Shown one piece after another: positions 4,073-40,572 of a stretch of 64,000 bases of DNA. The notes beneath the pieces are model-generated. The model did not search any database, had not been told where the DNA came from, and worked only from the letters and a program-made list of their open reading frames with translations. Position numbers and translations under genes: made by a program. The stretch's first letter is position 1. Every line of letters begins with the position of its first letter. Origin of the DNA: Paracoccus zeaxanthinifaciens ATCC 21588 (GTDB taxonomy: Bacteria; Pseudomonadota; Alphaproteobacteria; Rhodobacterales; Rhodobacteraceae); the NCBI RefSeq assembly GCF_000420145.1, contig NZ_ATUJ01000003.1:62001-126000 (forward strand), read 5' to 3'.

Positions 4073-4118
4073 TCCCGCATCCTTCCGGCACCCAGACAGA
4101 CCAAGGCAGACAATTCCC

Positions 4119-18603: not shown

Positions 18604-18665
18604 GCGGCATCCGCGACGCGCCCCGATGCGGGCGCGCCATGCATTCGTTGACCGGCGGCGCATAC

Positions 18666-19607: not shown

Positions 19608-19636
19608 GATCGCCGCGCTAGCGCAGCGCGGCGATC
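19608..19636. terminator. Symmetric hairpin between convergent kdgD and aldolase genes
   Basis: GATCGCCGCGCT and AGCGCGGCGATC form a perfect 12-bp stem with a 5-nt loop. It covers the 12-nt gap and the last codons of the minus-strand gene, so it can act in both directions, though there is no U-tract on either side. Confidence 0.55.
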
Positions 19637-21338: not shown

Positions 21339-21348
21339 CTCTGCCCCC

Positions 21349-25278: not shown

Positions 25279-27018
25279 TCAGAAGATGTCGGGTTCGCCC
25301 GCGACGCGGCCGAAATCGGTTTGCAGGAAATCGAAGTCGCAGCCCTGGTCGGCCTGCGTCACGTGACGTTCGAACATCCAGCCCCAGCCACGCTCGAACC
25401 GCGGCTGCGGCGGGGTCCAGGCGGCCTTGCGGGCGGCCAGTTCCTCTTCGGGGACCAGCATGTCCAGACGCCGCGCGTTCAGGTCCATGCGGATGATGTC
25501 GCCCGTGCGCAGCAGCGCCAGCGGCCCGCCGACAAAGCTTTCGGGCGCGACATGCAGCACGCAGGCCCCGTAGGAGGTCCCCGACATCCGCGCGTCCGAG
25601 ATGCGCAGCATGTCGCGATACCCCTGCCGGATCAGCGCCTTGGGGATGGGCAGCATCCCCCATTCGGGAAAGCCCGGCCCCCCCTGCGGCCCCGCGTTGC
25701 GCAGCACCATCACCGTGTCGGGCGTGATCTGCAGATCCTCGTCGTCGACGGCCTTCTTCATTTCGGGATAGCTGTCGAAGACCAGCGCCGGACCTTCGTG
25801 CAGGTGGTATTTCGGGTCACAGGCGGCGGGCTTGATGATCGCGCCGTCGGGGCACAGGTTGCCGCGCAGCACCGCCAGAGATCCCTCGCGATAGACCGGG
25901 TTCGACAGCGGGCGGATCACGTCGTCGTCGAAGACCTCGGCCCCTTGCAGGTTCTGCGCAAGGCTGCGGCCCGTGACGGTCAGGGCGCTGCCGTCCAGCC
26001 GATCCTCGATCTGCTTCATCAGCGCGCGCAGGCCGCCCGCCTGGAAGAAATCCTCCATCAGATAGTCCTTGCCCAAGGGGCGGACATTCGCGATCAGCGG
26101 CGTGTCGCGGCCAAGCGCGTCCAGATCGTCCAGCGACAGGGCGACGCCCGCGCGACGCGCCATCGCGATCAGGTGGACGACCGCGTTCGTCGAACAGCCC
26201 GTCGCCATCGCCACGATCGCCGCGTTGCGGACCGAGGCGGGGGTGATGATGCGGTCCGGGGTCAGATCCTCCCAGACCATGCCGACGATGCGGCGGCCGC
26301 ATTCCGCGCCCATGCGCTGATGCCCCGAATCCACCGCCGGGATCGAGGACGCGCCCGGCAGGGTCAGACCCATCGCATCAGTGATCGCGGTCATCGTGCT
26401 GGCGGTGCCCATCGTCATGCAGGTGCCCGCCGACCGCGCGATGCCGCCCTGCACGCCCAGCCATTCGTCGTCGGTGATGTTGCCCGCGCGGCGCTCGTCC
26501 CAGTATTTCCACGCATCCGACCCCGACCCCAGGGTCCGCCCTGCGAAATGCCCCCGCAGCATCGGCCCCGCAGGCAGATAGATCATCGGAACGCCCGCGC
26601 TGATCGCGCCCATGACCAGCCCCGGCGTGGTCTTGTCGCAGCCCCCCATCAGCACCACGCCGTCCAGCGGGTGGCTGCGGATCATCTCTTCGGTCTCCAT
26701 CGCCAGCATGTTGCGATACAGCATCGAGGTCGGCTTGGTGAAGCTTTCGTCCACGGACAACGCGGGAAGTTCCACAGGAAAGCCGCCCGCCTGCAGCACG
26801 CCGCGCCGCACGTCCTGCGCGCGTTCGCGGAAATGGGCGTGACAGCTGTTCAGCTCGGACCAGGTGTTCAGGATGCCGATGACGGGCTTGTCGCGGAAAT
26901 CCTCCTCGCCATAGCCCAGCTGCATCAGGCGCGACCGGTGGCCGAAGCTGCGCAGGTCGTCCGGCGCGAACCAGCGGGCCGAGCGCAGCTGGGAGGGGGT
27001 CTTCACGGGTTCGGTCAA
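25279..27018 (-). CDS. IlvD/Edd-family sugar-acid dehydratase (arabinonate/xylonate type)
   Basis: About 579 residues. The iron-sulfur cysteines are in GGCDKTTPG and MATGCSTN, and the C-terminal DARMSGTSYGACVLHVAPES region is the substrate-binding signature shared by L-arabinonate, D-xylonate and related dehydratases rather than IlvD itself. It would form a 2-keto-3-deoxy acid. A TTG start is preferred because AGGAAGGAAAG lies at ideal spacing; a GTG further upstream overlaps the previous gene and lacks a ribosome site. It is followed at once by the DapA-like gene, giving a Weimberg-like pair. Confidence 0.9.
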   Translation of the reverse strand: MTEPVKTPSQLRSARWFAPDDLRSFGHRSRLMQLGYGEEDFRDKPVIGILNTWSELNSCHAHFRERAQDVRRGVLQAGGFPVELPALSVDESFTKPTSMLYRNMLAMETEEMIRSHPLDGVVLMGGCDKTTPGLVMGAISAGVPMIYLPAGPMLRGHFAGRTLGSGSDAWKYWDERRAGNITDDEWLGVQGGIARSAGTCMTMGTASTMTAITDAMGLTLPGASSIPAVDSGHQRMGAECGRRIVGMVWEDLTPDRIITPASVRNAAIVAMATGCSTNAVVHLIAMARRAGVALSLDDLDALGRDTPLIANVRPLGKDYLMEDFFQAGGLRALMKQIEDRLDGSALTVTGRSLAQNLQGAEVFDDDVIRPLSNPVYREGSLAVLRGNLCPDGAIIKPAACDPKYHLHEGPALVFDSYPEMKKAVDDEDLQITPDTVMVLRNAGPQGGPGFPEWGMLPIPKALIRQGYRDMLRISDARMSGTSYGACVLHVAPESFVGGPLALLRTGDIIRMDLNARRLDMLVPEEELAARKAAWTPPQPRFERGWGWMFERHVTQADQGCDFDFLQTDFGRVAGEPDIF

Positions 27019-27053
27019 AACGTCTTTCCTTCCTGTCGTGGTCGCGCGCCGGA

Positions 27054-28466
27054 TCACAGCACCTTGCCGGGATTCATCAGCCCGTCGGGGTCCAGCGCGG
27101 ATTTGATGCGTTCCATCACGGCCAGCGCGACGGGGTCCTTGTAGCGGCGCAGCTCGGCCCGCTTGACCAGCCCGATGCCGTGTTCCGCCGAGATGCTGCC
27201 GCCCATATCCGCCACGATGTCATGCACGATGCGGTTGAAGGCGGGGTACTCGGCAAGGAAATCCGCATCCTTCATCGCCTTTGGCCGCGACAGGTTGAAA
27301 TGCAGGTTCCCGTCGCCGAAATGCCCGAATGGGCAGACGCGCAGATCGGGCATATGCGCGTGGCAGGCCGCCGTGGCACGGGTCAGGAAATCGGCCACGC
27401 GCGACACCGGGACCGACACGTCATGCTTGATCGAGGCCCCTTCGGGCTTCTGCGCCTCGGACAGGGATTCGCGCAGGCGCCACAGCCCGTCGCGCTGCGC
27501 CTCCGAGGCGCCGATGACGGCGTCGCGGATCTCCTCGGCCTCGAAGGCGGCGGCCAGCAGGCCCTCCAGCCGCTGGTCCGGATCGGACTGCGCATCGGCC
27601 GAGGTCAGCTCGATCAGGGCATAGGCCGGATGGGGTTCGGCCATCGGATCGGTGCAGCCCGGCCCGTGATCCAGCGCCATCTGCAGGGCGAGGCGGTCGA
27701 CATATTCGAAGGTCGACAGCGCATCCGCGCATTGCCCGCGCAGCCGGTCATACAGCGCCAGCGCCTGTTCCGGCCCCTTCACCCCGACCATCGCGGTCGC
27801 GCGGGTGACGGGGCGCGGGAACAGCTTCAGCACGGCGGCGGTGATGATCCCCAGCGTGCCTTCGGACCCCACGAACAGGTGCTTCAGGTCATAGCCGGTG
27901 TTGTTCTTGCGCAGCCCGTTCAGGTCCGACAGCACTTGCCCGTCGGGCAGCACCACCTCCAGCCCCAGGACCATCTCGCGCATGTTGCCATAGCGCAGGA
28001 CCGCCGTGCCGCCCGCATTCGTGGCAAGGTTGCCGCCGATCTGGCACGACCCCTCGGAGGCCAGCGACATCGGGAACAGCCGGTCCGCCTGCGCCGCCGT
28101 GTCCTGCACCACCTGCAGGATGCAGCCCGCCTCGACCGTCATGGTGCTGTTCAGCGCATCGACGGATCGGATGCGGTTCAGCCGGTCCGTCGCAAGGATC
28201 ACGCCGCCCTGCGGAACGCCACCACCGACCAGCCCGGTATTGCCGCCCTGCGGGGTGATGGCAACACCTGCCGCGCGGCAGATGCGGATGCATTCGGCGA
28301 TCTCGGCGGTGCTGCCGGGACGGATCAGGGCCAGCGCCTCGCCCCGATACAGGCCGCGATCCTCGGCCAGGCGCCCGCCCATCTGGGCGGGGTCGGTGGT
28401 GACATGTTGCGCGCCGATCGCCTGTTCCAGGCGCGCGGTCAGCAGATCGGGTCGGGCGGTCAGCAT
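27054..28466 (-). CDS. FAD-linked D-2-hydroxyacid dehydrogenase (GlcD / D-2-hydroxyglutarate dehydrogenase type)
   Basis: The protein (about 470 residues) belongs to the VAO/PCMH flavoprotein family: FAD-binding GGNTGLVGGGV near 75, GGNLATNAGG, the FAD-linked C-terminal domain, and the metal-binding His pair in GHFGDGNLHFN and SAEHGIGLVK. It would oxidise a D-2-hydroxyacid such as D-lactate, D-malate or D-2-hydroxyglutarate and pass electrons to a quinone or flavoprotein. It lies in one operon with the TRAP transporter and near a LarA-like racemase, so it may take the D form made by the racemase. The ATG at 28466 was chosen over an overlapping GTG. Confidence 0.9.
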   Translation of the reverse strand: MLTARPDLLTARLEQAIGAQHVTTDPAQMGGRLAEDRGLYRGEALALIRPGSTAEIAECIRICRAAGVAITPQGGNTGLVGGGVPQGGVILATDRLNRIRSVDALNSTMTVEAGCILQVVQDTAAQADRLFPMSLASEGSCQIGGNLATNAGGTAVLRYGNMREMVLGLEVVLPDGQVLSDLNGLRKNNTGYDLKHLFVGSEGTLGIITAAVLKLFPRPVTRATAMVGVKGPEQALALYDRLRGQCADALSTFEYVDRLALQMALDHGPGCTDPMAEPHPAYALIELTSADAQSDPDQRLEGLLAAAFEAEEIRDAVIGASEAQRDGLWRLRESLSEAQKPEGASIKHDVSVPVSRVADFLTRATAACHAHMPDLRVCPFGHFGDGNLHFNLSRPKAMKDADFLAEYPAFNRIVHDIVADMGGSISAEHGIGLVKRAELRRYKDPVALAVMERIKSALDPDGLMNPGKVL

Positions 28467-28470
28467 CGGA

Positions 28471-30165
28471 TCACCCACGGCCCTGCGCCGCGTCGCGCAG
28501 CCTGCTGATAGTGGTCCGGGTCGAGATCTGTTCGGGATCGGTCACCAGTTCGATGACGGCGGGTCTGCCACTGGCGCGGGCGCGGGCGAAGGCGGGGGCG
28601 AAATCCTCGGTCCGGGTGACGCGTTCGGCGTGACAGCCCAGCCCCTCGGCCATGCGGACGAAGTCCTGGTTCATCAGCGTGGTGCCCGACACGCGCCCCG
28701 GATGTTCGCGTTCCTGGTGCATGCGGATCGTGCCATAGGTGCCGTTGTTGAACAGCAGCACCACGGGCCGTCCGCCATATTGTGCGGCGGTGGCCAGTTC
28801 GTTCCCGCTCATCATGAAGCCGCCATCGCCGACGAAGGACAGGGCAAGACGGTCGGGATCGGCCAGCGATGCGGCGACCGCGGCAGGCACGGAATAGCCC
28901 ATCGCCCCGCAGGTCGATCCGACCACGCGGCCCGGACGACCAAAACGCAGGAAACGCTGCGCCCAGCCGGTATGGTTGCCCGCATCCAGCGTCACCACCA
29001 TGTCGGCGGGCAGCCCGTCACGGATCTGCGCCAGTGCCGCACCCATGTCCAGCGGCCAGTCCCCCTCAGGCGCGGGCGGTTCGCTGTCGGCCAGATATTC
29101 GCCATGCAGCCCCGCGCACCAGTCCGACCAGCGCGCCCCCTGCCCCAGATCGCGCCCGTCCAGCGCATCGGCGACCGAGTCAGGCGTCGCGGCGATGCCA
29201 AGGTCGGGGGAATAGACGCGCCCGATCTCGTCGGGGTCCGGATGGATATGGACCAGCCGGATCGCGGGGTTGGGCGGGGTCAGCGTGGTATAGGTCCTGG
29301 TCGTCATCTCGCCCAGGCGGGCACCGATCACGACCAGCAGGTCGGCCTCTTGCAGGCGCCGATACAGGCTGGGCGCGGTCGAGGTGCCGAAATCGCCCGC
29401 ATAGACGGGCGAGAGGTTGTCCACGATGTCCTGCCGCCGGAACGAGCAGGCCACCGGCAGGTGATTGCCTTCGGCAAAGCGCTGGATCGCGGCCGCCGAG
29501 GCATCCGACCACCCCGATCCGCCCAGCAGCAGCAGCGGGCGTTCGGCACGCGACAGCTCGTCCGCAAGGGCGTCCAGCCGATCCGGGGCGATCCCTGCCC
29601 CGGTCGGGCAGAAGGGCCGCGCATCGGCGACGGCCACGGCATCGGTCAGCATGTCCTCGGGCAAGGCGATCACCACCGGACCGGGCCGTCCCGAGGTCGC
29701 CACGCGGAAGGCCCGCGCCATGTATTCCGGAATCCGCCGCGCATCGTCGATCTGGGTCGCCCATTTCGCGACGGGGCCGAACATGGCGCGATAGTCCAGT
29801 TCCTGGAACGCCTCGCGGTCGGTCGTGTCGCGGGCGATCTGGCCGACCAGCAGGATCATCGGCGTGCTGTCCTGCTGCGCGATATGGACGCCGATGGCCG
29901 CGTGGCAGGCCCCCGGACCGCGCGTCACCATGCAGATGCCGGGACGCCCGGTCAGCTTGCCATAGGCCTCGGCCATGTTGGCGGCGCCTGCCTCATGGCG
30001 GGCATTGATCAGGGTAAAGCGGTCCTGGACGTCATGCAGCGCATCCAGCACCTCGAGATAGCTTTCGCCGGGCACGCAATAGGCGGTGTCTGCGCCGTGG
30101 ATCAGCAACTGGTCGACAAGGATCTGGCCACCGGTGCGGGTCGCGGTATCTGTGGTCTTCAGCAT
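28471..30165 (-). CDS. Thiamine-diphosphate-dependent enzyme, acetolactate synthase-like
   Basis: The 564-residue product has the three ThDP-enzyme domains: a pyrimidine-binding domain with catalytic Glu58 in ARHEAGAANMAE, a central domain, and a PP-binding domain with GDGGFMMSGNELATA followed by NNGTYG. It is in the AHAS/benzoylformate-decarboxylase-like group but there is no regulatory subunit gene, so branched-chain synthesis is unlikely. It may be a 2-oxoacid decarboxylase or carboligase (glyoxylate carboligase-like) acting on products of this pathway. The exact reaction is unknown. Confidence 0.85.
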   Translation of the reverse strand: MLKTTDTATRTGGQILVDQLLIHGADTAYCVPGESYLEVLDALHDVQDRFTLINARHEAGAANMAEAYGKLTGRPGICMVTRGPGACHAAIGVHIAQQDSTPMILLVGQIARDTTDREAFQELDYRAMFGPVAKWATQIDDARRIPEYMARAFRVATSGRPGPVVIALPEDMLTDAVAVADARPFCPTGAGIAPDRLDALADELSRAERPLLLLGGSGWSDASAAAIQRFAEGNHLPVACSFRRQDIVDNLSPVYAGDFGTSTAPSLYRRLQEADLLVVIGARLGEMTTRTYTTLTPPNPAIRLVHIHPDPDEIGRVYSPDLGIAATPDSVADALDGRDLGQGARWSDWCAGLHGEYLADSEPPAPEGDWPLDMGAALAQIRDGLPADMVVTLDAGNHTGWAQRFLRFGRPGRVVGSTCGAMGYSVPAAVAASLADPDRLALSFVGDGGFMMSGNELATAAQYGGRPVVLLFNNGTYGTIRMHQEREHPGRVSGTTLMNQDFVRMAEGLGCHAERVTRTEDFAPAFARARASGRPAVIELVTDPEQISTRTTISRLRDAAQGRG

Positions 30166-30183: not shown

Positions 30184-32052
30184 TCACTCGCCCGGCTGGG
30201 TCAGGGGTTTCGACTGGCGCAGGGTCTGGGTGAACCAGATCACGCCCGCGCAGGTCAGACCGGCCAGGGTCACCCGCCAGTCGGGATAGATGAAGCACAG
30301 CGACCCGGCGAACAGGACCATCGCCTGCAGGGGCCGCAACCGGCCGAAGAAGTAGCGTTGCAGCGCCGCCGCCAGCAGCACGACCCCAAGCGTCGCCTGC
30401 GCGATCACCATGAAGATGTGGAACCAGTCGCCCTGCAGCAGGATCGCGGGCTCATAGACGAACATGAAGGGCACGATGAAACCGGTCGCGCCCAGCTTGA
30501 CCGCCGCCCAGCTGGCCTCGACGATCTTGGCTTGGCTCAGCGTGTTGGCGGCATAGACGGCCATCGCCACGGGGGGCGTGATCGCGGACAGGATCGCGAA
30601 GTAGAAGACGAACAGATGCGCCGCCTCGACCTGCACGCCCAGCTTGACCAGCGCGGGCACCAACAGCGCGACCTGCACGATATAGGCCGGGGTCGTGGGC
30701 ATCCCCATGCCCAGGATGATGCCCGCCACCATCGACAGCAGCAGCGCGATCAGCAACGTGTCCTGCGCCGCCGAGATCACGAAGTTCGAGAAGGTCAGCC
30801 CCAGCCCGGTGATGTCGATCACGCCGACCACGATGCCCGCACAGGCGCAGGCCGCAGCGATGGACAGCACGTTCCGTGCGCCGTTCTCCAGCGCGCCCAG
30901 GATGTTGTCGAGCGTCACGTAATGGCGCGTCGTCTTGCGCAGAGCGGCGGTCGGGATGACCGACACCACCCCGCACAGCGCGGCATAGGGCGCGGAGTAG
31001 CCCTGCAGCAGCACGCCGATGATGATCGCCAGCGGGATGAACAGGTGGCCGCGCTCGCGCAGCACCTGCATCATCGGGACCTGATCCTCGGCCGGGACGC
31101 TGCCGACACCCATGCGGCGGGCCTCGAAATGCACGGCGGCGAACAGCGCGACATAGAACAGGATCGCCGGAACGATCGCATAGGCCGCGACCTGCAGGTA
31201 TCCGACGCCCAGGTATTCGGCCATGACGAAGGCCGCGGCCCCCATCACCGGCGGCATGATCTGCCCGCCGGTCGATGCCACGGCCTCGACCGCGCCGGCG
31301 AAGGCGGGCTTGAAGCCCATGCGCTTCATCAGCGGGATCGAGAAGGTTCCCGTCGTCATGACATTCGCCACCGCCGAACCCGAGACCGAGCCGAACATCC
31401 CCGAGGTCACGCAGGCGACCTTGGCCGGGCCGCCGACCTGCCGCCCCGTCAGGGCGACCGCGAAATCCATGAACAGCTGGCCCACGCCCATCCGCTCGAC
31501 CAGCGAACCGAACAGGATGAACAGCACCATGTAGGTCGCCGAGACCGAGATCGGGATGCCGAAGATCCCCTCGGTCGTCATGAACAGCTGTTCCAGGATC
31601 ACGCTCGGCAGGGTCGAGGTGAAGGTCAGCCCATAGGCCATGAACAGCATGGCCGTGATTGGCAGGACCGGGCCCAGCATCCGCCGCGCGCCCTCCAGCA
31701 GCAGGACGACCAGCACGATCCCCACCACGATATCCATCGGCAGCAGCGGATCGACATAGAGGAACCGCTGGTACACGTATTCGAGGTTCAACGAGGGATA
31801 GAGCGCGGCAAGGCACGCCACGATCCCCAGCCCCACATCCAGCCAACGCGGGCGTTCGGTCAGCATCCCCTGCCGGTTCACCGTCAGGAAGATCAACAGC
31901 AGCGCCAGCGCCACATGAGTCCCGCGCATGACATAGGGGTTCGGCGGCCCCGCGAACGCGACATAAAGATGCCACAGCGCCATTCCGATCAGGATGACAC
32001 GCGCGATGCGCCCGATCAGCGGGATGTTGCGGTCGAAAATGGACAGGTTCAC
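30184..32052 (-). CDS. TRAP transporter fused permease (DctQM type, TAXI system)
   Basis: The 622-residue membrane protein fuses the 4-helix small subunit (about 1-160) with the 12-helix DctM large subunit. Motifs typical of TAXI-TRAP fused permeases are present, for example GSVSGSAVANV, GGQIMPPVMGAAAF and GMGMPTTPAY. It would import an organic acid with Na+ or H+ together with the TAXI binding protein encoded 85 nt upstream. It is followed 18 nt later by the ThDP-enzyme gene, so transport and catabolism share a transcript. Confidence 0.94.
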   Translation of the reverse strand: MNLSIFDRNIPLIGRIARVILIGMALWHLYVAFAGPPNPYVMRGTHVALALLLIFLTVNRQGMLTERPRWLDVGLGIVACLAALYPSLNLEYVYQRFLYVDPLLPMDIVVGIVLVVLLLEGARRMLGPVLPITAMLFMAYGLTFTSTLPSVILEQLFMTTEGIFGIPISVSATYMVLFILFGSLVERMGVGQLFMDFAVALTGRQVGGPAKVACVTSGMFGSVSGSAVANVMTTGTFSIPLMKRMGFKPAFAGAVEAVASTGGQIMPPVMGAAAFVMAEYLGVGYLQVAAYAIVPAILFYVALFAAVHFEARRMGVGSVPAEDQVPMMQVLRERGHLFIPLAIIIGVLLQGYSAPYAALCGVVSVIPTAALRKTTRHYVTLDNILGALENGARNVLSIAAACACAGIVVGVIDITGLGLTFSNFVISAAQDTLLIALLLSMVAGIILGMGMPTTPAYIVQVALLVPALVKLGVQVEAAHLFVFYFAILSAITPPVAMAVYAANTLSQAKIVEASWAAVKLGATGFIVPFMFVYEPAILLQGDWFHIFMVIAQATLGVVLLAAALQRYFFGRLRPLQAMVLFAGSLCFIYPDWRVTLAGLTCAGVIWFTQTLRQSKPLTQPGE

Positions 32053-32137: not shown

Positions 32138-33097
32138 TCACTCCATCCCGGCGATGCCGCGTTCGGCATAGAACTCCGTGGCGGCCGAATGCATGGGCAC
32201 GCCGATATCGGTGGCCATCTCCTCGACGGTCAGCCCCTCCATCGACTTGTTCACCGAGGCGAAGCTGTCCACGTTGTCCGCGACCGCCGCCAGCACCGCC
32301 TTGACGATCGTGCCGTCCGTGTCGCAGGGCGCGACCATATGCGTGTCGTAGCTGAGCGTCTTGATCGCCTGATCGAAGCCCGGATAGGCGCCCGCGGGCA
32401 CGTCACGAAGCTGGAAGGCCGCGTTCTTGGCCTTGAAATGTTCGAAGGTGGCGTCGTCCACGTTCATCAGCGCGATGTCGCGCGACGATGCCAGGTCCAT
32501 GACCGACCCCGTCGGCAGCGACGAACCCAGGGTGAAGATGTCGGCATGGCCGTCCTTCATCTGCGTCGCGCTGTCGGAATAGGACGTGTGCGCGACCGAA
32601 CCCAGATCCTCGTAGGACATGTCCTGCAGGGCCAGCAGCTCTCGCGTCAGGAACTCGCCGGTATTGCCGACCTGCTGGGTTGTCAGCCGCTTGCCCGCCA
32701 TGTCCGCGATGCCGTTCACGTTCGCATCCGCGATGCTGACGATCTGGAAATATTGCGGGTACAGGATCCCGATATTGCAGACATTGGTCGTGGGCTTGCG
32801 GAAGGGCTCCTTGCCCTCCAGGCTGTCCACCGTCGAGATCGAGTTCGCGAAGGCGATCTGGAAGCGCCCCGCATCCACTCCGACCACGTTGGCCGCACCC
32901 GCGCCGGGCGTCACGGTGAAGTCGATATCGGGGTTCTCTCGCTCGACGATGGCCTTGATCTGGCCGCCGACGGGGAACCACGATCCCCCCTGCTGACCGG
33001 TCGCCATGGTGATGGCCTGCGCATGCGCGGTTCCCGCCGCCATCAGACCCAGTGCGGTACACGCGGCAAGACGCGCGGCTGTGCTTCTGCGGAACAT
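32138..33097 (-). CDS. TAXI-family TRAP transporter substrate-binding protein
   Basis: The 319-residue protein has a signal peptide (MFRRSTAARLAACTALG..., cleavage after AHA near 26) followed by ITMATGQQGGSWFPVGG, the standard start of TAXI periplasmic receptors. The ATG behind GGAGGGGGA was used; a longer frame upstream lacks a ribosome site and would spoil the signal peptide. It is the first gene of an apparent 11-gene minus-strand operon running to the GarL-like aldolase. Ligand is unknown; TAXI receptors are less studied than DctP. Confidence 0.93.
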   Translation of the reverse strand: MFRRSTAARLAACTALGLMAAGTAHAQAITMATGQQGGSWFPVGGQIKAIVERENPDIDFTVTPGAGAANVVGVDAGRFQIAFANSISTVDSLEGKEPFRKPTTNVCNIGILYPQYFQIVSIADANVNGIADMAGKRLTTQQVGNTGEFLTRELLALQDMSYEDLGSVAHTSYSDSATQMKDGHADIFTLGSSLPTGSVMDLASSRDIALMNVDDATFEHFKAKNAAFQLRDVPAGAYPGFDQAIKTLSYDTHMVAPCDTDGTIVKAVLAAVADNVDSFASVNKSMEGLTVEEMATDIGVPMHSAATEFYAERGIAGME

Positions 33098-33226
33098 CGA
33101 TTCCCCCTCCCTGGAATATGTCTTCTGCTGTCGGATCAATGGGTCCCGCGATGGCCGCTCCTCCTGCGGCGGGGTCCCGGATCACCTGTGGCAAGGTTGC
33201 GGCAAAGGGGCGCCTCCTGTCAATTA

Positions 33227-33257: not shown

Positions 33258-33281
33258 TATCACACTGTTATCGTTGTGATA
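33258..33281. promoter_or_regulatory. Inverted repeat TATCACA-N10-TGTGATA
   Basis: A perfect 7-bp inverted repeat with a 10-nt spacer in the divergent gap between the TAXI gene and larE. Arms and spacing differ from the TGATATATTAG element that it partly overlaps, so it may bind a second regulator. Confidence 0.4.
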
Positions 33282-33295
33282 TATTAGTCATATCA
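33277..33295. promoter_or_regulatory. Candidate GntR operator TGATAT-N7-ATATCA
   Basis: TGATATATTAG followed by TCATATCA forms an inverted repeat (TGATAT / ATATCA). The first 11 bases recur perfectly at 36434-36444 on the other strand. It lies 78 nt upstream of larE and about 180 nt upstream of the TAXI gene, in a locally AT-rich island. Two GntR genes are close by and either could be the binder. Confidence 0.5.
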
Positions 33296-33372: not shown

Positions 33373-34173
33373 ATGACCATATCGCAAGGGCTTGCAGCGG
33401 CGTTGCGCGCGCCACAAGGGCTGGTCATCGCTGTCAGCGGCGGCATGGACAGCCTGTGCCTGACGGCGGCTGCGGCGCGTGTGCGCGACGGCGACCTGCG
33501 CATGGTGCACGCATCCTCGGCGGCGGTTCCGGCCCAGGCGACAGACCGCGTGCGCCGCATGGCGGCCGATCTGGGGCTGCCGCTGGACGTGGTCGATGCC
33601 CGCGAATTCGCGGACGAGCGTTATCGCGCGAACCCGGTCGACAGGTGCTACTATTGCAAGACGAACCTCTATCGCACGCTGGTCGCGGCCAATCCCGGCC
33701 ATGTGGTCGCGTCGGGGACGAACCTGGACGATCTGGGCGATTACCGCCCCGGCCTGCGCGCGGCCGGGGAACACGGCGTGATCCACCCCTTCGCGGATGC
33801 CCGCATGACCAAGGACGACGTGCGGCGGCTGGCGGACGGGCTGGGCCTGCCCCAGATCGCCGCGCTGCCCGCATCGCCCTGCCTTGCCAGCCGCATCCAG
33901 ACCGGCCTGCGCGTCGAGCCCGGGGAACTGCGCATGATCGACACGGTCGAGACGCGCCTGCGCGAGGTTCTGGGCCCCGTCACGCTGCGCTGCCGCCGCC
34001 AGCCGCAGGGCATCGCGATTGAGATCGACGAGACCCGCCTTGCCGCCCTGTCCGACCCCGACCGGCAGGACATCGCGCGACTGGCCCGCATCGCGGTCGA
34101 CGAACACGGATATGCGGGGCTGGCGATCCGCCTTGCCCCCTACAGGCAGGGGAGCGCGTTCATCCATGCGTGA
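33373..34173 (+). CDS. larE: NPN cofactor biosynthesis sulfur transferase
   Basis: The 266-residue product is a PP-loop ATP pyrophosphatase with SGGMDS (22-27), NPVDRCYYCKTNLY (88-100), GTNLDDLGDYRPG and SPCLASRI. LarE adenylates the pyridinium dicarboxylate made by LarB and converts carboxylates to thiocarboxylates for the nickel-pincer nucleotide. Three cysteines are placed as in the iron-sulfur type of LarE: Cys92 and Cys95 (CxxC) and Cys170. The single-cysteine, sacrificial type has only the last. The ATG behind AGGAGGCGTGGGG was chosen. It overlaps larB by 8 nt. Confidence 0.92.
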   Translation: MTISQGLAAALRAPQGLVIAVSGGMDSLCLTAAAARVRDGDLRMVHASSAAVPAQATDRVRRMAADLGLPLDVVDAREFADERYRANPVDRCYYCKTNLYRTLVAANPGHVVASGTNLDDLGDYRPGLRAAGEHGVIHPFADARMTKDDVRRLADGLGLPQIAALPASPCLASRIQTGLRVEPGELRMIDTVETRLREVLGPVTLRCRRQPQGIAIEIDETRLAALSDPDRQDIARLARIAVDEHGYAGLAIRLAPYRQGSAFIHA

Positions 34174-34858
34174 CCAGGGAACCGACAGCCACCCGCTGGT
34201 GACCTTCGACCGCGACAGGCAGGACCGGATCGGCCTGCCCGAGGCGGTCCTGGCCGAGCCGAAGACGATCGACCAGTTGTCGGCCATCATCGGGGATGCC
34301 ATGGCCGAGGGGCGCCGCCTTCTGCTGACGCGCCTGACGCCCGACCAGCACGCGGCCCTTGGCGCGGACGCACGCGCGGCGCTGGATTATTGCGCCACCT
34401 CGCGCACGGCGATCCTGGGGGGCTGCCCCGAACCGGACGGGCGGCTGCGGATCGCGCTGGTCAGCGCCGGAACCTCGGATGCCGGACCGCTGATCGAGGC
34501 GCAGCGCGTGCTGGCCCATGCCGGCCAGGGCGCGCATGTCTTCGCGGATTGCGGGGTCGCGGCCCTGTGGCGGCTGACCCGCCACCAGGAAACGCTGCGC
34601 GGGATGGATGTCGTCATCGTCTTTGCCGGAATGGACGCGGCGCTGCCAAGCGTCGTGGGCGGGATGGTGCCGGGGCTGGTCATCGCGGTGCCGACCTCGG
34701 TCGGATACGGGGTCGCGACGGGCGGGCGCGTGGCGCTGGATTCCGCGCTGGCAAGCTGCGCATCCGGGGTGCTCGTGACCAATATCGACAACGGCTATGG
34801 CGCGGCCTGCGCGGCGCTGCGCATGGCGAATGTCACCGCAAGGGGGGGGTGGCCATGA
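34166..34858 (+). CDS. larB: NPN cofactor biosynthesis protein, nicotinate adenine dinucleotide carboxylase/hydrolase
   Basis: The 230-residue protein has a PurE-like C-terminal domain with VSAGTSD (99-105) and a Cys198 in ALASCASG, matching the cysteine that forms the covalent adduct with nicotinic acid adenine dinucleotide in LarB. It carboxylates the pyridinium ring at C5 and cleaves the phosphoanhydride, giving pyridinium-3,5-dicarboxylic acid mononucleotide. The N-terminal part (about 1-90) matches the LarB-specific region around LDYCATSRTA. It is coupled to larE before it and overlaps the GntR gene by ATGA after it. Confidence 0.93.
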   Translation: MRDQGTDSHPLVTFDRDRQDRIGLPEAVLAEPKTIDQLSAIIGDAMAEGRRLLLTRLTPDQHAALGADARAALDYCATSRTAILGGCPEPDGRLRIALVSAGTSDAGPLIEAQRVLAHAGQGAHVFADCGVAALWRLTRHQETLRGMDVVIVFAGMDAALPSVVGGMVPGLVIAVPTSVGYGVATGGRVALDSALASCASGVLVTNIDNGYGAACAALRMANVTARGGWP

Positions 34859-35625
34859 GGATGCTGCCCTCGGTCAACCTGTCGGATCCCACCCCCGCGC
34901 CAACCCCGGACGAGGGAGCGAAGCTGACCATCCGCAAGCGCAAGACGCTGGCCGACCAGCTTTACGGTCAGATCCTGGAACAGATCGTGTCGGGCGTGCT
35001 GCAGCAGGACGCCAAGCTGCCGTCCGAGAACCAGATCTGCGCCGCGTTCGAGGTGTCCCGCCCCGTCGTGCGCGAAGCCCTGCGCCGCCTGCAGGAGGAC
35101 GGCCTGATCGAGGCGCGGCGCGGCGTCGGATCCTTCGTGCGCAAGCGTCCGCCGCAGGGGCTGGTGCAGTTCACCACCTCGGACAGCGTGGCGGGCCTGC
35201 TGCGCTGCATGGAGGCGCGGATGGCGGTCGAGGGGCAGACCGCCCGCCTTGCCGCGCTGCGCGCCACCCCGCGCGACATCGCGGCCATCGAATCCGCGCT
35301 GCGCGTTCTGGAAGGCGCGATGAAACGACGCGAAGTCGGGCGCGATGCCGATTTCGGCTTTCACCTGGCCGTGGCCGAGGCCAGCGGCAACGAGGTCTTC
35401 GTCGCCATGCTGAACGCCATCCGCGAACAGACCGAACGCGCCATCACCGTCGCCCAGAGCATCACGGTCGGCGGCACGCAGGCCCGCGTCGATCGCGTCT
35501 CGTTCGAGCATCGCCAGATCTTCCAGGCCATCCTGGCCCGCGACAGCGAGGCCGCCGGCCTGTCGATGGCCTATCACCTGATGCAGGCGCGGCGCCGGAT
35601 CACCGATTACGCGCAGGACGACTGA
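34855..35625 (+). CDS. GntR-family regulator, FadR/FCD subclass
   Basis: The 256-residue product has a winged helix at about 28-95 (KTLADQLYGQILEQIVSG, SRPVVREALRRLQEDGLIEA in part) and an FCD domain at about 110-245 with the helix FGFHLAVAEASGN. It is translationally coupled to larB (ATGA overlap), so the NPN genes larE-larB and this regulator are made together. It probably senses the hydroxyacid or sugar acid handled by the island. It ends exactly where the convergent GntR gene ends. Confidence 0.92.
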   Translation: MRMLPSVNLSDPTPAPTPDEGAKLTIRKRKTLADQLYGQILEQIVSGVLQQDAKLPSENQICAAFEVSRPVVREALRRLQEDGLIEARRGVGSFVRKRPPQGLVQFTTSDSVAGLLRCMEARMAVEGQTARLAALRATPRDIAAIESALRVLEGAMKRREVGRDADFGFHLAVAEASGNEVFVAMLNAIREQTERAITVAQSITVGGTQARVDRVSFEHRQIFQAILARDSEAAGLSMAYHLMQARRRITDYAQDD

Positions 35626-36405
35626 TCAGCCGAAATATTCGGGGAAGGCCGCGCGTTTCTCGGACAGGCGGTCGACGGTGCGGCGCAGGTGGCGGCGCAT
35701 GGCCTCGGCGGCATCCTCGGGTCGCCCTGCGGTGATCGCCTCGATGACCGCGCCATGCCCGTCGATCACCGCGCTCATGTTCGCATGGCTGTCGGCGGCG
35801 GCAGGCGCATCGGGCAGGAAGATGCGGCGCAACCGGTCCAGATGCCCCGACCGGCTGCGCATCAACCGCGCGGTCTGCATGTGACCGGCAGCGGCGAACA
35901 GCGCCATGTGGAACACCTCGTCCAGTTCCTGGAAGGTGGCGATGCTGTCGGCGTCGCCCACCAGGCTGGATTGCAGCTTGTGGATGCCGCGCAGCCGCTC
36001 CAGGTCCTCGGGGGCGATCGCGGTGGACAGTTCGCGCACGACCTCGGTCTCGAGCGCCATGCGCAGGAACTGGGCCTCGCGGATGGCGGTCACGTCGATG
36101 GGCGCGACCAGCGTGCGCGACTGTGGAAAGATCAGGACCAGCCCTTCCTCGGCCAGTTGCTGCAGGGCATCGCGCAGGGGCGTGATGCTGACGCCGAACT
36201 GGCGCGCAAGCTCGGCCCGCGGCAGGGGCGTTCCGGGGACCAGCTCCAACCGGACGATGCGGCTGCGCAGCGCGTCATAGACGCCGCGCCCCGCCTGCCC
36301 GCCTTCGAACAGGCCCTGCGATATGCCCTGCAGGCCGAACCCCGCGGCAAGTCCAAGGCCGGATGGCGACGGGATGTCGGACGGGGTGCCATGCTGTTCG
36401 GCCAT
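35626..36405 (-). CDS. GntR-family regulator, FCD subclass
   Basis: The 259-residue product has an N-terminal tail, a winged helix at about 40-105 (ALRSRIVRLELVPG, SITPLRDALQQLAEEGLV) and an FCD domain at about 115-245. It is only distantly similar to the other GntR protein encoded next to it. Its gene is divergent from the GarD-like gene; the 108-nt gap holds the AT-rich element at 36434, making that operon its likely target and the protein a self-regulator. Confidence 0.9.
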   Translation of the reverse strand: MAEQHGTPSDIPSPSGLGLAAGFGLQGISQGLFEGGQAGRGVYDALRSRIVRLELVPGTPLPRAELARQFGVSITPLRDALQQLAEEGLVLIFPQSRTLVAPIDVTAIREAQFLRMALETEVVRELSTAIAPEDLERLRGIHKLQSSLVGDADSIATFQELDEVFHMALFAAAGHMQTARLMRSRSGHLDRLRRIFLPDAPAAADSHANMSAVIDGHGAVIEAITAGRPEDAAEAMRRHLRRTVDRLSEKRAAFPEYFG

Positions 36406-36433
36406 TGCGACTGTTCCTCGAGCTTCGTATATT

Positions 36434-36444
36434 CTAATATATCA
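36434..36444 (-). promoter_or_regulatory. Candidate GntR operator, dehydratase side
   Basis: On the minus strand the sequence reads TGATATATTAG, identical to the element at 33277-33287, and continues AATATAC, giving a partly symmetric site. It lies 70 nt upstream of the GarD-like gene and 29 nt upstream of the divergent GntR gene. Confidence 0.5.
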
Positions 36445-36513
36445 GATGGGCGGAATCTGTCGATCCCCTCGACCCGGGATACCGCATTCCGCCCAGCTTG
36501 GGGAGGAGACATC

Positions 36514-38061
36514 ATGGAAGATCGAACCGCCGCCACGATGGCGCGGCCGCGCATCCTGCGCCTGAACGCGGGTGACAACGTCGCGGTCGCCCTGCAACCG
36601 ATCCCCGCGGGATACGCCCTGCCCGAACTGGACATCACCGCGCGGCAGGAGATCCCGCAGGGCCACAAGATCGCGCTGTGCGCCATTCCCGAAGGTTCGC
36701 CCATCCTGAAATTCGACGTGGTGATCGGCTATGCCGGAACCGATCTGCAAGCCGGCGACTGGCTGCACAGCCACAACATCCGCTTCGACGCGGTCGAGAA
36801 GGACTATGCCTTCGCCCGCGACTATCGCCCGACCCGCATCCTGCCGCCGGACCGGCGGGCCGTGTTCCAGGGCATCCGCCGCGCGAACGGGCGCGTGGGG
36901 ACGCGCAACTATATCGGGCTGTTCGTGACGGTGAACTGTTCGGCCACGGTGGCCCGCAAGATCGCCAATCACTTCGACGAGGAACGCCTGCAGGACTGGC
37001 CCCATGTCGATGGCGTCATTCCCTTCATCCACGAATCCGGCTGCGGGATGGAGATGACGGGAGAGCCGATGGACCTGCTGCGCCGCACGCTGGCGGGCTA
37101 TGTCCGCCATCCGAACATGGCGGGCGCGGTGGTCGTCTCGCTTGGTTGCGAGCGCAACGACCTGATGCAGTTCTTCCGCGACCACAGCCTGGCCGAGGGC
37201 AAGATGCTGCGCAGCATCACCATGCAGCATGTCGGCGGCACCGCCCGCGCCATCGCCGAGGGCAAAAAGGCCGTGCGCCAGATGCTGGACCGGGCGAACG
37301 AGGTCCGGCGCGAGCCCTGCTCGGCGGAACATATCACCATCGGCATGCAATGCGGCGGCTCGGACGGGTTGTCGGGGCTGACGGCCAATCCGGCACTTGG
37401 GGCCGCCGCCGACATCCTGATCCGCAATGGCGGCACCGCGATCCTGTCGGAAACCCCCGAGATCTTCGGCGTCGAACAGCTTCTGACCCGCCGCGCCCGA
37501 TCCGAGGAGGTGGGCCGCAAGCTGGTCGACCGGATGGACTGGTGGCTGGATCACACCCGTGGCCGGGACACGCAGATCAACGGCAATGTCAGCCCCGGCA
37601 ACAATGCGGGCGGGCTGGCCAACGTGCTGGAAAAGTCGCTTGGCGGGGCGAAGAAGGGCGGCACGACCGGGCTGATGCAGGTCTATCGCTATGCCAAGCC
37701 CGTGGACGAGAAGGGCCTTGTCTTCATGGATACGCCGGGCTTCGATCCGGTCTCGGCCACGGGTCAGATCGCGGGGGGCGCGAACCTGATCTGCTTTACC
37801 ACCGGTCGGGGGTCGTGCTTCGGCAGCTACCCCTCGCCCACGATCAAGCTGGCCTCGAACAGCGCGATGTTCGCACGAATGGAGGAGGACATGGACGTCA
37901 ATTGCGGCCGCATCGCCGACGGCACCAGCACCATCGAGGAGATGGGAGAGGAGATCTTCCGCACCATCCTGGACATCGCATCGGGCCGGCAAAGCAAATC
38001 CGAGGCGCTTGGCGTGGGCGAGGATGAATTCGCCCCCTGGCCCATCGGCGTGACGGGATAA
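36514..38061 (+). CDS. Galactarate/altronate dehydratase family protein
   Basis: The 515-residue product has an N-terminal SAF domain (about 17-95, ending GDWLHSHNI) and the UxaA/GarD catalytic region with FIHESGCGM, VSLGCERND, GMQCGGSDGLSG and NVSPGNNAGG. These enzymes are Fe2+-dependent and dehydrate an aldarate or aldonate. Length is between E. coli UxaA (495) and GarD (523); with KdgD and GarL relatives nearby, galactarate or a stereoisomer is the likely substrate. It starts an operon with the LarA-like gene, whose ATG lies 4 nt after this stop. Confidence 0.88.
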   Translation: MEDRTAATMARPRILRLNAGDNVAVALQPIPAGYALPELDITARQEIPQGHKIALCAIPEGSPILKFDVVIGYAGTDLQAGDWLHSHNIRFDAVEKDYAFARDYRPTRILPPDRRAVFQGIRRANGRVGTRNYIGLFVTVNCSATVARKIANHFDEERLQDWPHVDGVIPFIHESGCGMEMTGEPMDLLRRTLAGYVRHPNMAGAVVVSLGCERNDLMQFFRDHSLAEGKMLRSITMQHVGGTARAIAEGKKAVRQMLDRANEVRREPCSAEHITIGMQCGGSDGLSGLTANPALGAAADILIRNGGTAILSETPEIFGVEQLLTRRARSEEVGRKLVDRMDWWLDHTRGRDTQINGNVSPGNNAGGLANVLEKSLGGAKKGGTTGLMQVYRYAKPVDEKGLVFMDTPGFDPVSATGQIAGGANLICFTTGRGSCFGSYPSPTIKLASNSAMFARMEEDMDVNCGRIADGTSTIEEMGEEIFRTILDIASGRQSKSEALGVGEDEFAPWPIGVTG

Positions 38062-38065
38062 GACC

Positions 38066-39403
38066 ATGACCCAGCTTGCGAAACCGAACTATGTCCGGCT
38101 GGTCGAGGATACGCCCCTGCCCCGCATCGCGCTGTGCCGCCAGCGGTTCCAGGGCACGCGGATCGACGATCCGGCCCGCGCCGTCCACGACGCGCTGGCC
38201 GCCGCCGATTGCGCGTCGAAGATCCGCCCCGGCATGTCCATCGCCATCACCGCGGGCAGCCGCGGCATCGCGGCCTTTCCCGAACTGGTCGCGGCCATCG
38301 TCGCGGAAATCCGTGCGCGGGGGGCCGACCCCTTCGTCGTGCCCGCGATGGGCAGCCACGGTGGCGCCACCGCCGAGGGTCAGACCGCCGTCCTGGCCAA
38401 GCTGGGCGTCACCGAGGAGGTCATCGGCTGCCCCATCCGGTCCAGCATGGACACGGTCGAGATCGGGCGGCTGGATAACGGCATGTCCGTCCGCATGGAC
38501 CGCCACGCGCAGGATGCCGACGGCATCGTCCTGTTCAACCGCATCAAGCCCCACACCTCGTTCCGCGCGCCGAACGAAAGCGGGCTGGCGAAGATGCTGT
38601 CCATCGGTCTGGGCAAGCAATCGGGGGCCGAGGCATGCCATTCGCGTGGCATCGACCAGGTGCCGATCTATGTCGATCTGATGGCGCGGATGAAGCTGGA
38701 ACGCTGCAAGGTGCTGTTCGGCATCGGCACGATCGAGAACGCCCATGACCAGCTGTCCGACATCGCGGTCCTGGACAGCGAGGGCCTGCTGGAGGCCGAA
38801 CAGCCCTGGCTGCAAAAGGCGATGGCGAACATGCCGCGGCTGCCGGTCGGTCCCGCCGATGCGCCCTCGGCTGCGGGCAATCTGGACGTGCTGGTCGTCG
38901 ATCAGATCGGCAAGGAGTTTTCGGGGACCGGTATGGATCCGAACATCACGCATCGCTTCTCGTCGGCCAGGATGATGGCGCATGCCACGCTGCACATCTC
39001 GCGCCTTGCCGCGCTGGAACTGTCGCCGCGCAGCAACGGCAACGGCAATGGCGCGGCCCGCGCGGACGTGGTGACCGCACGGCTGGAACAGGCCTTCGAC
39101 CGAGAGGCCGTCTATGCCAATGCGCTGACCTCGACCGTGCTGCTGCAGGCCAAGATGCCGATGGTCATGCCCGACGATCGCAGCGCCATCCAGGCCGCGA
39201 TCAAGACCTGCGGCGCCCAGGATATCGCCAAGGCCCGCCTGCTGCGCATCCCCAACACGCTGCAGCTGGAATATCTCTATGCGTCCGAGGCCATGCTGCC
39301 CGAATTGCAGGACAGGCCGGGGATCGAGGTGATCGGCCCGCCTGAACCGATGCGCTTCGACGCCGTGCGGCTGGCGAATCCCTGGCCCGAGGCGCATCCA
39401 TGA
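38066..39403 (+). CDS. LarA-family (lactate racemase domain) NPN-dependent racemase/epimerase
   Basis: The 445-residue product belongs to the nickel-dependent hydroxyacid racemase superfamily (DUF2088). Visible elements: AMGSHGGAT with His98, NRIKPHTSF with His163, a downstream lysine Lys176 in ESGLAKM (candidate cofactor-bearing residue), His192 in ACHSRG (candidate nickel ligand), and Lys283 in DQIGKEFSG. The surrounding sequence is unlike true lactate racemase (for example no GYSGGRK motif), so the substrate is probably not lactate. Sitting between an aldarate dehydratase and LarC, it may invert a hydroxyl next to a carboxylate so that a stereoisomer can enter the dehydratase. It overlaps larC by ATGA. 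Confidence 0.82.
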   Translation: MTQLAKPNYVRLVEDTPLPRIALCRQRFQGTRIDDPARAVHDALAAADCASKIRPGMSIAITAGSRGIAAFPELVAAIVAEIRARGADPFVVPAMGSHGGATAEGQTAVLAKLGVTEEVIGCPIRSSMDTVEIGRLDNGMSVRMDRHAQDADGIVLFNRIKPHTSFRAPNESGLAKMLSIGLGKQSGAEACHSRGIDQVPIYVDLMARMKLERCKVLFGIGTIENAHDQLSDIAVLDSEGLLEAEQPWLQKAMANMPRLPVGPADAPSAAGNLDVLVVDQIGKEFSGTGMDPNITHRFSSARMMAHATLHISRLAALELSPRSNGNGNGAARADVVTARLEQAFDREAVYANALTSTVLLQAKMPMVMPDDRSAIQAAIKTCGAQDIAKARLLRIPNTLQLEYLYASEAMLPELQDRPGIEVIGPPEPMRFDAVRLANPWPEAHP

Positions 39404-40572
39404 GGCTGCATCTGCATCTGGACCCGCTTGGCGGGATCGCGGGCGACATGTTCGTCGCGGCGATGCTGGACGCCTTTCCAGACCTGACGGATCGCGTGCT
39501 GGCCGATGTGGCCGCCGTGCTGCCCCGCGACGCGGGCACCGCGCGGCTGGAACGCGGCATGTCGCGGGGCATGTCTGTCCTGCGCTTCGGCCTGCATGGC
39601 GGGCACGCGCATGACCATCATCACCACCATCACCATGACCACGCGACGACCTATGCCGCGCTGCGCGACCGCATCGGTGCCGCGCCGCTGTCCGAGGGCA
39701 GCGCGCACCACGCCTGTGCCATCCTGCACCTGATCGCCCTGGCCGAGGCTGCGGCCCATGACCTGCCGCTGGAGAAGGTGCATTTCCACGAACTGGCCGA
39801 CTGGGATTCGCTGATGGATGTCGTGGCGGCGGGCAGCATCGTCGCGGCACTGGGCGATGCCACATGGTCCTGCGCGCCCCTGCCGCTTGGCAGGGGCACG
39901 ATCCGCACGGCGCATGGCATCCTGCCGGTGCCCGCCCCGGCCACCGCGCGGATCCTGCAGGGATACGACTGGATCGATGACGGGATCGGCGGCGAACGCG
40001 TGACGCCCACGGGCGCGGCCATCCTGGCGCATGTGACCGGCGGACGCCCCGCCCCCACCCCTCCGGGCGGGCGCATGGGGGCGACCGGCATGGGCGCGGG
40101 CACGCGCGACCTGTCCGACCGCCCGAACGTGCTGCGCGTCACCGCCTTCGACATCGCGCAGGGGGCCGACCGCGACCGGGTCGTCCAGCTTGCCTGCGAT
40201 CTGGACGACATGACCGGAGAGGAGATCGGCGCCGCGACCGACCGCCTGCGCGACATGCCGGGGGTCTTGGACCTGACCCTGCTGAATGCGCAGGGCAAGA
40301 AGTCGCGCCCCGTGACGCGCATGGAACTGCTCTGCGATCCGGCGCGGGCAGAGGCTGTCGCCGCGCGGATGTTCGACCTGACCTCGACCATCGGGATCAG
40401 GCGCACCGAGGTCGCGCGCCTCGTGCTGCCCCGATGCTCGACGACCGTCGCCGGGATGCCCGCCAAGACCGTCGGCCGCCCCGGCAGCACCACCACCAAG
40501 ATCGAGGACGAGGCGCTGCGCGCCCATGAAACGCTGGCCTCGAGACGCGCTGCCGCGAAAAATATCGTCTGA
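39400..40572 (+). CDS. larC: NPN cofactor biosynthesis nickel insertase
   Basis: The 390-residue protein opens HLDPLGGIAGDMFVAAMLDA, the LarC signature, and has a histidine-rich stretch at about 66-81 (eight or more His with Asp), suited to nickel handling. The C-terminal domain includes CDLDDMTGEEIG and TSTIGIRR. LarC inserts nickel with CTP into the pyridinium dithio-mononucleotide, completing the cofactor. Here it is a single uninterrupted frame; in Lactobacillus plantarum the two halves are joined by programmed frameshift. It ends the dehydratase-larA-larC operon. Confidence 0.93.
   Translation: MRLHLHLDPLGGIAGDMFVAAMLDAFPDLTDRVLADVAAVLPRDAGTARLERGMSRGMSVLRFGLHGGHAHDHHHHHHHDHATTYAALRDRIGAAPLSEGSAHHACAILHLIALAEAAAHDLPLEKVHFHELADWDSLMDVVAAGSIVAALGDATWSCAPLPLGRGTIRTAHGILPVPAPATARILQGYDWIDDGIGGERVTPTGAAILAHVTGGRPAPTPPGGRMGATGMGAGTRDLSDRPNVLRVTAFDIAQGADRDRVVQLACDLDDMTGEEIGAATDRLRDMPGVLDLTLLNAQGKKSRPVTRMELLCDPARAEAVAARMFDLTSTIGIRRTEVARLVLPRCSTTVAGMPAKTVGRPGSTTTKIEDEALRAHETLASRRAAAKNIV

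Follow-up and report, generated by a model that had tools for sequence, protein, structure and literature searches.

The window, a stretch of 64,000 nucleotides of the 3.05-Mb genome of Paracoccus zeaxanthinifaciens ATCC 21588 (contig NZ_ATUJ01000003.1, positions 62,001 to 126,000), contains a homologue of LarA, here called LarA22 (gene larA22), in one neighbourhood with the genes for synthesis of the nickel-pincer nucleotide (NPN) cofactor, two regulator genes and a gene for a putative sugar-acid dehydratase. Of the named relatives in the set of loci retrieved, Paracoccus homiensis is the closest, with a LarA that is 98% identical. The genes are as follows:

33373..34173, plus strand: larE, sulfur transferase of NPN synthesis (TIGR00268, 239.8 bits, cut-off 150)
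34166..34858, plus strand: larB, first enzyme of NPN synthesis (NF033503, 225.2 bits, cut-off 175)
34855..35625, plus strand: gntR1, GntR/FCD regulator 1 (Pfam FCD and GntR)
35626..36405, minus strand: gntR2, GntR/FCD regulator 2, divergent from uxaA (Pfam)
36514..38061, plus strand: uxaA, dehydratase of the GarD/UxaA family (Pfam SAF, GD_AH_second and GD_AH_C)
38066..39403, plus strand: larA22, LarA homologue of group 22 (NF052515, 484.2 bits, cut-off 400)
39400..40572, plus strand: larC, nickel insertion, a single open frame (TIGR00299, 167.3 bits, cut-off 90; NF052512, 91.7 bits, cut-off 50)

The genes larE, larB and gntR1 form one run on the plus strand, gntR2 is reversed, and uxaA, larA22 and larC form a second, tight run. 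Overlaps of a few bases are present between larE and larB, larB and gntR1, and larA22 and larC, and the gap between uxaA and larA22 is 4 bases. Since the matches of the four lar genes are well above the curated cut-offs, chance can be excluded. The first-pass annotation, made from the letters of the DNA, was therefore right in reporting larE, larB, larC, a LarA-family gene and two GntR genes as present and intact, and the motifs it had read were found as well: LarE has the PP-loop SGGMDS at residue 22 and Cys92, Cys95 and Cys170 (two more cysteines are at 29 and 207), LarB has SAGTSD at 100 and five cysteines, of which Cys198 is a candidate catalytic residue, and LarC has a His-rich stretch at 71. 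An SGGXDS motif together with CXXC-C cysteines marks the [4Fe-4S]-dependent LarE in the passages covered of PMC9283937; by its cysteines, the LarE encoded here would be of this type. The genome encodes one Lar_N protein, one LarE over the cut-off, three IlvD/Edd proteins and two GD_AH proteins.

LarA22 belongs to the NCBIfam family "nickel pincer cofactor-dependent isomerase, group 22", which is taken to be the group of the same number of Desguin et al. 2020 (PMC7583248). The NF052515 model was run on the window and on eight relatives of the locus set, all of which were over the cut-off; the remaining relatives were counted as members by tblastn similarity (at least 36% identity). An AF2 model built from 22 sequences had a mean pLDDT of 87.2, and all 17 Foldseek matches of this predicted model in the PDB at an E value of ≤0.001 were LarA-family chains. 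PDB searches with the protein by phmmer and with a 29-sequence profile gave no match, and likeness to solved LarA structures was thus derived from the fold and via canonical LarAs. We aligned LarA22 with its relatives from 28 of 36 loci (the eight left out were the window's own gene, present twice, and the close relatives L008, L010, L016, L018, L035 and L036), and R66, H98, K161, H163, K176 and H192 were invariant in 29 of 29 sequences. In an hhalign comparison with two canonical LarAs, one of which (L046) aligns with the L. plantarum LarA structures, R66 corresponded to Arg75, and H98, H163, K176 and H192 corresponded to His108, His174, Lys184 and His200; with four canonical LarAs, the mapping of the N-terminal domain was unchanged. 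Thus, the counterparts of the NPN-binding Lys184 and the nickel ligand His200 are kept throughout, as are those of the catalytic His108 and His174, the latter by alignment at a weak profile score, and the His/Lys motifs noticed in the first pass do align with those of LarA. Group 17 has Asn in place of His174; a like substitution at the second catalytic position was considered for LarA22 and rejected, because H163 is invariant.

Among 295 genomes of the host's family (294 genera), group 22 was present in 7 (the window's own included) and LarB over the cut-off in 9, and all 7 genomes with group 22 were also LarB positive (Fisher P = 1e-12, not corrected for phylogeny). The two other LarB genomes, G410 and G451, each have a different Lar_N protein. 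In a draw of 398 genomes from the phylum, group 22 was found in 3, including the genome studied here, and among 14 control genomes it was found in Haloferax volcanii.

To the left of larE lies a series of genes, most of them on the opposite strand:

32138..33139, minus strand: TAXI solute-binding protein (TIGR02122)
30184..32052, minus strand: fused TRAP permease (TIGR02123)
28471..30165, minus strand: thiamine diphosphate (TPP) enzyme of the PRK08199 type (PRK08199 match)
27054..28478, minus strand: FAD-linked oxidase, GlcD-like (below the GlcD cut-off)
25279..27057, minus strand: IlvD/Edd dehydratase of the L-arabinonate dehydratase type (PRK13016, 1099 bits, cut-off 882; PDB relatives)
24349..25278, minus strand: DHDPS-family enzyme, not KdgD (TIGR03249, 101.5 of 373.95 bits; PDB relatives)
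23615..24355, minus strand: SDR oxidoreductase, start position provisional
22070..23593, minus strand: aldehyde dehydrogenase family protein (family matches far under the cut-offs)
19618..22059, minus strand: genes for an HpaI/GarL-type aldolase, a D-2-hydroxyacid dehydrogenase and an RraA-like protein (PRK08245, the only one over the cut-off)
18703..19605, plus strand: kdgD-like gene, 5-dehydro-4-deoxyglucarate dehydratase (PRK03620, 410.8 bits, cut-off 278; TIGR03249, 359.3 bits, just under 373.95)

The link to a TAXI-TRAP system claimed in the first pass is thus borne out, with the transporter genes at 30184 to 33139 on the strand opposite to larE. The KdgD claim fits one of the two DHDPS-family genes of the window: the product of 18703-19605 is KdgD-like and 96% identical to its orthologue in P. 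homiensis, and the gene at 24349-25278 is not KdgD. The product of 22070-23593 is a possible 2-oxoglutarate semialdehyde dehydrogenase. The hand-made gene finder, which missed gntR1, gntR2 and the SDR gene of the window and most genes of L029, served only to pick search proteins. Compared with P. homiensis (L002), the proteins of uxaA, larA22, TRAP, TPP and kdgD are 95 to 98% identical and those of taxi and larC 86%, and those of larE, larB, gntR1 and gntR2 are just 63 to 75% identical. In P. homiensis, a GntR gene precedes larE, for which the window has no room. By these comparisons, 33373-36405 is probably a replaced segment relative to P. homiensis. The left part of the window (1426-5930) contains cysI, cysH and cysJ, the genes for assimilatory sulfite reductase and PAPS reductase.

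The enzyme whose gene directly precedes larA22 had been called an aldarate-type dehydratase. Its membership in the GarD/UxaA family stands, but it reached only 377 of the 730.85 bits of the galactarate dehydratase model (TIGR03248), no altronate dehydratase model was among its NCBIfam matches, and of the E. coli enzymes, GarD shares 33.5% identity with it and UxaA 35.4%. Because its score is under the GarD cut-off and it lies about as far from one enzyme as from the other, the aldarate type is unproven, and by sequence the enzyme appears to be clearly neither GarD nor UxaA. The second GD_AH gene of the genome is a distinct paralogue (45.5% identical), which comes after a gene with a sub-threshold tagaturonate reductase match (170.5 bits, cut-off 359), an order that would fit a UxaB-UxaA pair.

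The gene context was compared across 34 loci (17 genome contigs, 9 plasmid records and 8 further genomes, the window excluded) by counting tblastn matches to window proteins with a midpoint within 10.5 kb of larA; some loci are shorter, and the counts are not independent because many loci are close relatives. Near larA, larC was found in 27 loci, larB in 15 and larE in 14; GarD/UxaA-type and IlvD dehydratases in 17 each, an aldehyde dehydrogenase in 14 and a DHDPS-type protein in 13; fused TRAP in 10 (three at 24 to 32% identity) and TAXI in 7. In the tree, IlvD accompanies larA22 on three branches that lie apart from one another, namely, in the Rhodobacterales clade, in G299 (LarA 49% identical, on a long branch), and in G086 (39%) together with G550/G565 (38%). 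G086 retains relatives of TAXI, TRAP, TPP, GlcD and SDR at 57 to 75%, and farther along, it encodes a GarD that is 64 to 68% identical to that of E. coli, a glucarate-dehydratase-like protein (692 of 828.7 bits) and KdgD (402.6 bits, cut-off 373.95). In Paenibacillus, the order is uxaC, larA22, a gene for a D-mannonate-oxidoreductase-like SDR (267 of 281 bits) and then larE, larB and larC; in Niallia, the SDR and lar genes follow this order too, with uxaC about 5 kb off. On plasmids of haloarchaea, four relatives have neighbours whose annotations point to sugar or sugar-acid metabolism; the families tested there scored under the cut-offs.

Several further observations concern these neighbours. 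The GlcD-like oxidase and the PRK08199 TPP enzyme (27054-30165) remain with TAXI-TRAP and IlvD even in G086, and they could oxidize and then decarboxylate a 2-hydroxy acid in a second branch. Relatives of the aldolase, D-2-hydroxyacid dehydrogenase and PRK08245 genes (19618-22059) are near larA22 in the distant L038, the RraA-like one also in L060, and relatives of these genes are near gntR2 or ilvD in L070, L073, L074 and L084. In the distant clade L039-L041, larA22 is beside larC-larE-larB, and DctM/DctP-type TRAP genes are present in L040 and L041. Many strains of Pseudosulfitobacter and Sulfitobacter (e.g., L036), several of them from diatoms, carry larA22 on plasmids; 60 of the 114 plasmid records that matched larA22 did so at 60 to 80% identity.

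A further line of evidence comes from a shared palindrome with the core pattern CTRATATATCAG. A longer palindrome, TATATTNNAATATA, was tried and has only one occurrence in the window, and the shorter, conserved core was used instead. With at most one mismatch, this core was found in the window at three places (four matches, one place matching on both strands):

36434..36445, no strand assigned: palindrome CTAATATATCAG, operator-like, between gntR2 and uxaA, upstream of uxaA-larA-larC
33276..33287, minus strand: copy 2, one mismatch, between taxi and larE
18665..18676, minus strand: copy 3, one mismatch, ending 27 bases before the kdgD start at 18703

In 100 shuffles of the window, the mean was 0.06 matches and none reached 4. 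In the whole genome, the pattern with at most one mismatch occurs at 6 places (10 matches), compared with 2 matches for the reversed pattern; 3 of these places are in the island and 3 lie within long open frames on another contig. The chance that 3 of 6 places fall into a given 20-kb stretch is about 6e-6, for a stretch that was chosen after the fact. From its place between taxi and larE, copy 2 could act on the two divergent operons at once. The presumed binder of the palindrome is the gntR2 product. Indeed, in all 16 of the 34 loci with a GntR2 of at least 57% identity, the palindrome stands beside gntR2 with at most two mismatches, and the near relatives without gntR2 (L004, L005 and L009) have no palindrome at that place. 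In six of these loci (L006, L008, L011, L012, L013 and L016), a second copy is found some 40 to 65 bases before the ilvD match. The survey was then extended to the genomes of eight relatives, and 18 of 21 new loci were inspected; most other one-mismatch places of these genomes were outside the inspection. The palindrome was upstream of kdgD in P. homiensis (L068, no mismatch), of ilvD in G543 (L072) and of an SDR gene in two genomes (L069 and L081); the ilvD sites of L084 and L086 are those of L013 and L012. The loci L039-L041 hold related palindromes such as CTGATATACCAG. By its positions, the palindrome ties LarA22 to what appears to be a sugar-acid pathway towards 2-oxoglutarate. Neither the palindrome nor these gene partners were met in the nickel-pincer literature covered, in which no search aimed at them was made.

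Common control of kdgD, ilvD, larE and uxaA-larA-larC, together with dedicated cofactor genes, is best explained by a sugar-acid C2-epimerase. Therefore, we consider it likely that LarA22 is an NPN-dependent C2-epimerase of sugar acids that acts ahead of a 2,3-dehydratase in a GntR2-controlled island. From the genes and their families, the aligned residues, the predicted fold, the co-occurrence and the shared palindrome, we infer a reaction, its direction, a regulator-binding site and a class of substrates as follows. The TAXI-TRAP system would import a sugar acid, and LarB, LarE (of the [4Fe-4S] type by its cysteines) and LarC would build NPN. LarA22 would hold NPN through Lys176, with His192 on the nickel, and His98 and His163 would be the acid/base pair, so that C2 is inverted by proton-coupled hydride transfer. 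The dehydratase encoded just before larA would accept the epimer whose C2 has the right configuration, and the 2-keto-3-deoxy acid would be converted to 2-oxoglutarate via KdgD, or the second DHDPS-family enzyme, and the aldehyde dehydrogenase. The gntR2 product would control the gene set through CTRATATATCAG. Since 2,3-dehydration erases the stereochemistry at C2, both epimers reach one 2-keto-3-deoxy acid. The leading substrate classes are hexarates and aldonates; KdgD points to a hexarate, and IlvD and the Bacilli loci point to an aldonate. The first-pass annotation had proposed a complete NPN pathway with a LarA homologue working on a sugar acid or aldarate and feeding KdgD and 2-oxoglutarate; the co-occurrence with LarB, the recurring context and the palindrome support this, and the aldarate as the substrate and racemization itself are unproven.

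LarA22 shares features with several known systems. Like L. plantarum LarA with LarB, LarC and LarE, it has the cofactor-binding and catalytic residues, by alignment, and the three synthesis genes; unlike that system, it has no Asp72 and a C-terminal domain that is not alignable, sugar-acid genes surround it, and its LarE is of the CXXC-C type. GntE (LarAH19 and LarAH20, the D-gluconate 2-epimerases of C. glutamicum and T. maritima) is likewise a LarA-family enzyme in a uronate/aldonate setting, which the Bacilli loci resemble, but LarA22 is in another phylogenetic group. After the second histidine, LarA22 has Thr164-Ser165, whereas GntE has Glu-Val/Ser and LAR has Phe-Phe; the equivalence of these residues to positions 175/176 is unsure because the loop is 3 residues longer in LarA22. 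LarASp and LarABw (PMC12611868) also have a C-terminal domain unlike that of classical LarA, a carbohydrate context and a fold similar to the LarA22 model (9q3j and 9q3k), but they have a single catalytic histidine with Asn as the second residue, whereas LarA22 has His163. The adjacent dehydratase is in the same family as E. coli GarD and UxaA but on a separate branch. LarA22 thus is an added member, over the cut-off of NF052515, of a recognized group without reported activity in the literature covered, and its operon, context and palindrome are described here. No reaction or substrate of group 22 is given in the text covered of PMC7583248, PMC11770544, PMC12611868 and PMC9283937 (passages), group 22 is not mentioned in the main text of PMC7583248, and the search terms counted in the part of PMC11796402 covered were all at zero. 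The earlier statement that the substrate of such an operon is not established agrees with this body of text, outside which are the supplements and figures of key papers; Figure 2 of PMC11770544 predicts functions for over half of the LarA superfamily.

Several findings weigh against a sugar-acid C2-epimerase. The Foldseek TM-scores of the LarA22 model were 0.44 to 0.58, and the hhalign match to two canonical LarAs was weak (probability of 21%, E value of 0.001). Asp72 of LarA has no counterpart in the 29 sequences, which have Ala, Val or Leu three residues before the arginine; it faces a gap in the alignment with two LarAs and Ala63 in that with four, and it is a feature of LarA that is not known to define group 22. 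The loop from H163 to the lysine is 3 residues longer than in LarA, and even in permissive mode, hhalign gave no believable alignment of the C-terminal domain, where Lys298 lies and which matters for specificity. In the co-occurrence sample, G405 (82% complete) encodes a Lar_N protein but no LarB over the cut-off, and G445 has pieces of LarB under the cut-off (116.8 bits) and no Lar_N match. None of the three neighbours tested on the 7.5-kb contig of L017 (LarA 56% identical) is a sugar-acid gene, the haloarchaeal and Rubrobacter loci (L030-L034) have no match to larB, larC or larE within their stretches, and five near relatives (L005, L009, L014, L015 and L042) have no uxaA next to larA, so that a uxaA-type dehydratase is not essential to the module. 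In three of the eight relatives' genomes, the palindrome was in no clear excess over the reversed pattern (13 to 12 in G677, 13 to 22 in G680 and 8 to 6 in G681). Single weak matches therefore mean little, and the argument rests on recurring gene partners. Finally, gene context failed to indicate the activity in several cases in the main text of Desguin et al. (PMC7583248).

Of the narrower forms that a sugar-acid C2-epimerase may take, a 2-epimerase of aldonates (pentonates or hexonates) is quite possible, if short of an even chance, with D-ribonate/D-arabinonate, L-arabinonate/L-ribonate and D-mannonate/D-gluconate as candidate pairs. The IlvD or the UxaA-like enzyme would then be the dehydratase, and KdgD would belong to another branch. 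The recurrence of an IlvD of the L-arabinonate dehydratase type beside larA22 on three branches and the palindrome upstream of ilvD in relatives argue for aldonates, and the Bacilli loci, with uxaC and the D-mannonate-oxidoreductase-like SDR, are similar to the route from mannonate to gluconate that has been proposed for T. maritima GntE2. However, KdgD works on a product of a C6 aldarate, and its gene has the palindrome before it both in the window and in P. homiensis; in addition, G086 has GarD, the glucarate-dehydratase-like gene and KdgD near its larA22. These last findings speak instead for a 2-epimerase of hexarates (e.g., talarate/galactarate or mannarate/glucarate) that feeds a GarD-like dehydratase and KdgD, and so does the GarD/UxaA family of the adjacent dehydratase; but this enzyme is under the galactarate dehydratase cut-off and equally far from UxaA, and such a reading would assign no function to IlvD or the second DHDPS enzyme. 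We therefore regard hexarates as somewhat less probable than aldonates. In the same tentative range is a broader proposal, by which group 22 would comprise NPN-dependent C2-epimerases for C5 to C6 sugar acids, and LarA22 would be a dedicated aldarate epimerase (e.g., talarate/galactarate) in one regulon with dehydratases, KdgD and cofactor synthesis through CTRATATATCAG.

Three alternatives depart from a C2-epimerase of the imported sugar acid, and all are improbable. LarA22 could be a racemase of a small by-product of the pathway (glycerate, 2-hydroxyglutarate, tartrate or lactate) rather than of the imported substrate. The GlcD-like, D-2-hydroxyacid dehydrogenase and TPP genes are nearby, and a glycerate-kinase-like gene (247 of 550 bits) is near a haloarchaeal relative, but the recurring neighbours are dehydratases, and the malate racemase model (NF052593) gave 25.6 bits against a cut-off of 500. 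Slightly less probable again is that group 22 shifts a hydride within one enantiomer and is an NPN-dependent isomerase of another type. The loss of the Asp72 counterpart and the longer catalytic loop would fit, and Desguin et al. consider a reaction of this kind for homologues with one histidine missing, but both catalytic histidines are kept by alignment in 29 of 29 sequences. Very unlikely is racemization of sulfolactate ahead of a sulfo-lyase; the GD_AH family also includes sulfolactate sulfo-lyase. In favour of this, two relatives have genes nearby that match the L-sulfolactate dehydrogenase family (137 and 186.5 of 500 bits), and larA of L017 has a neighbour that matches sulfoacetaldehyde dehydrogenase (486 of 600 bits). 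Against it, the dehydratase is in one piece and of the GarD/UxaA type, and no sulfonate gene over the cut-off is among the locus genes tested.

Many groups of the large LarA superfamily are without an assigned substrate; close relatives of LarA22 occur in proteobacteria, bacilli, an actinobacterium and haloarchaea. The gene context and the palindrome shorten the list of candidate substrates from all hydroxyacids to a few sugar acids. If LarA22 is indeed an NPN-dependent C2-epimerase of sugar acids, it would provide a nickel-dependent route in which a single dehydratase suffices for both C2 epimers of a sugar acid, would place nickel in the sugar-acid catabolism of Rhodobacterales and would be a new epimerase for sugar-acid chemistry.

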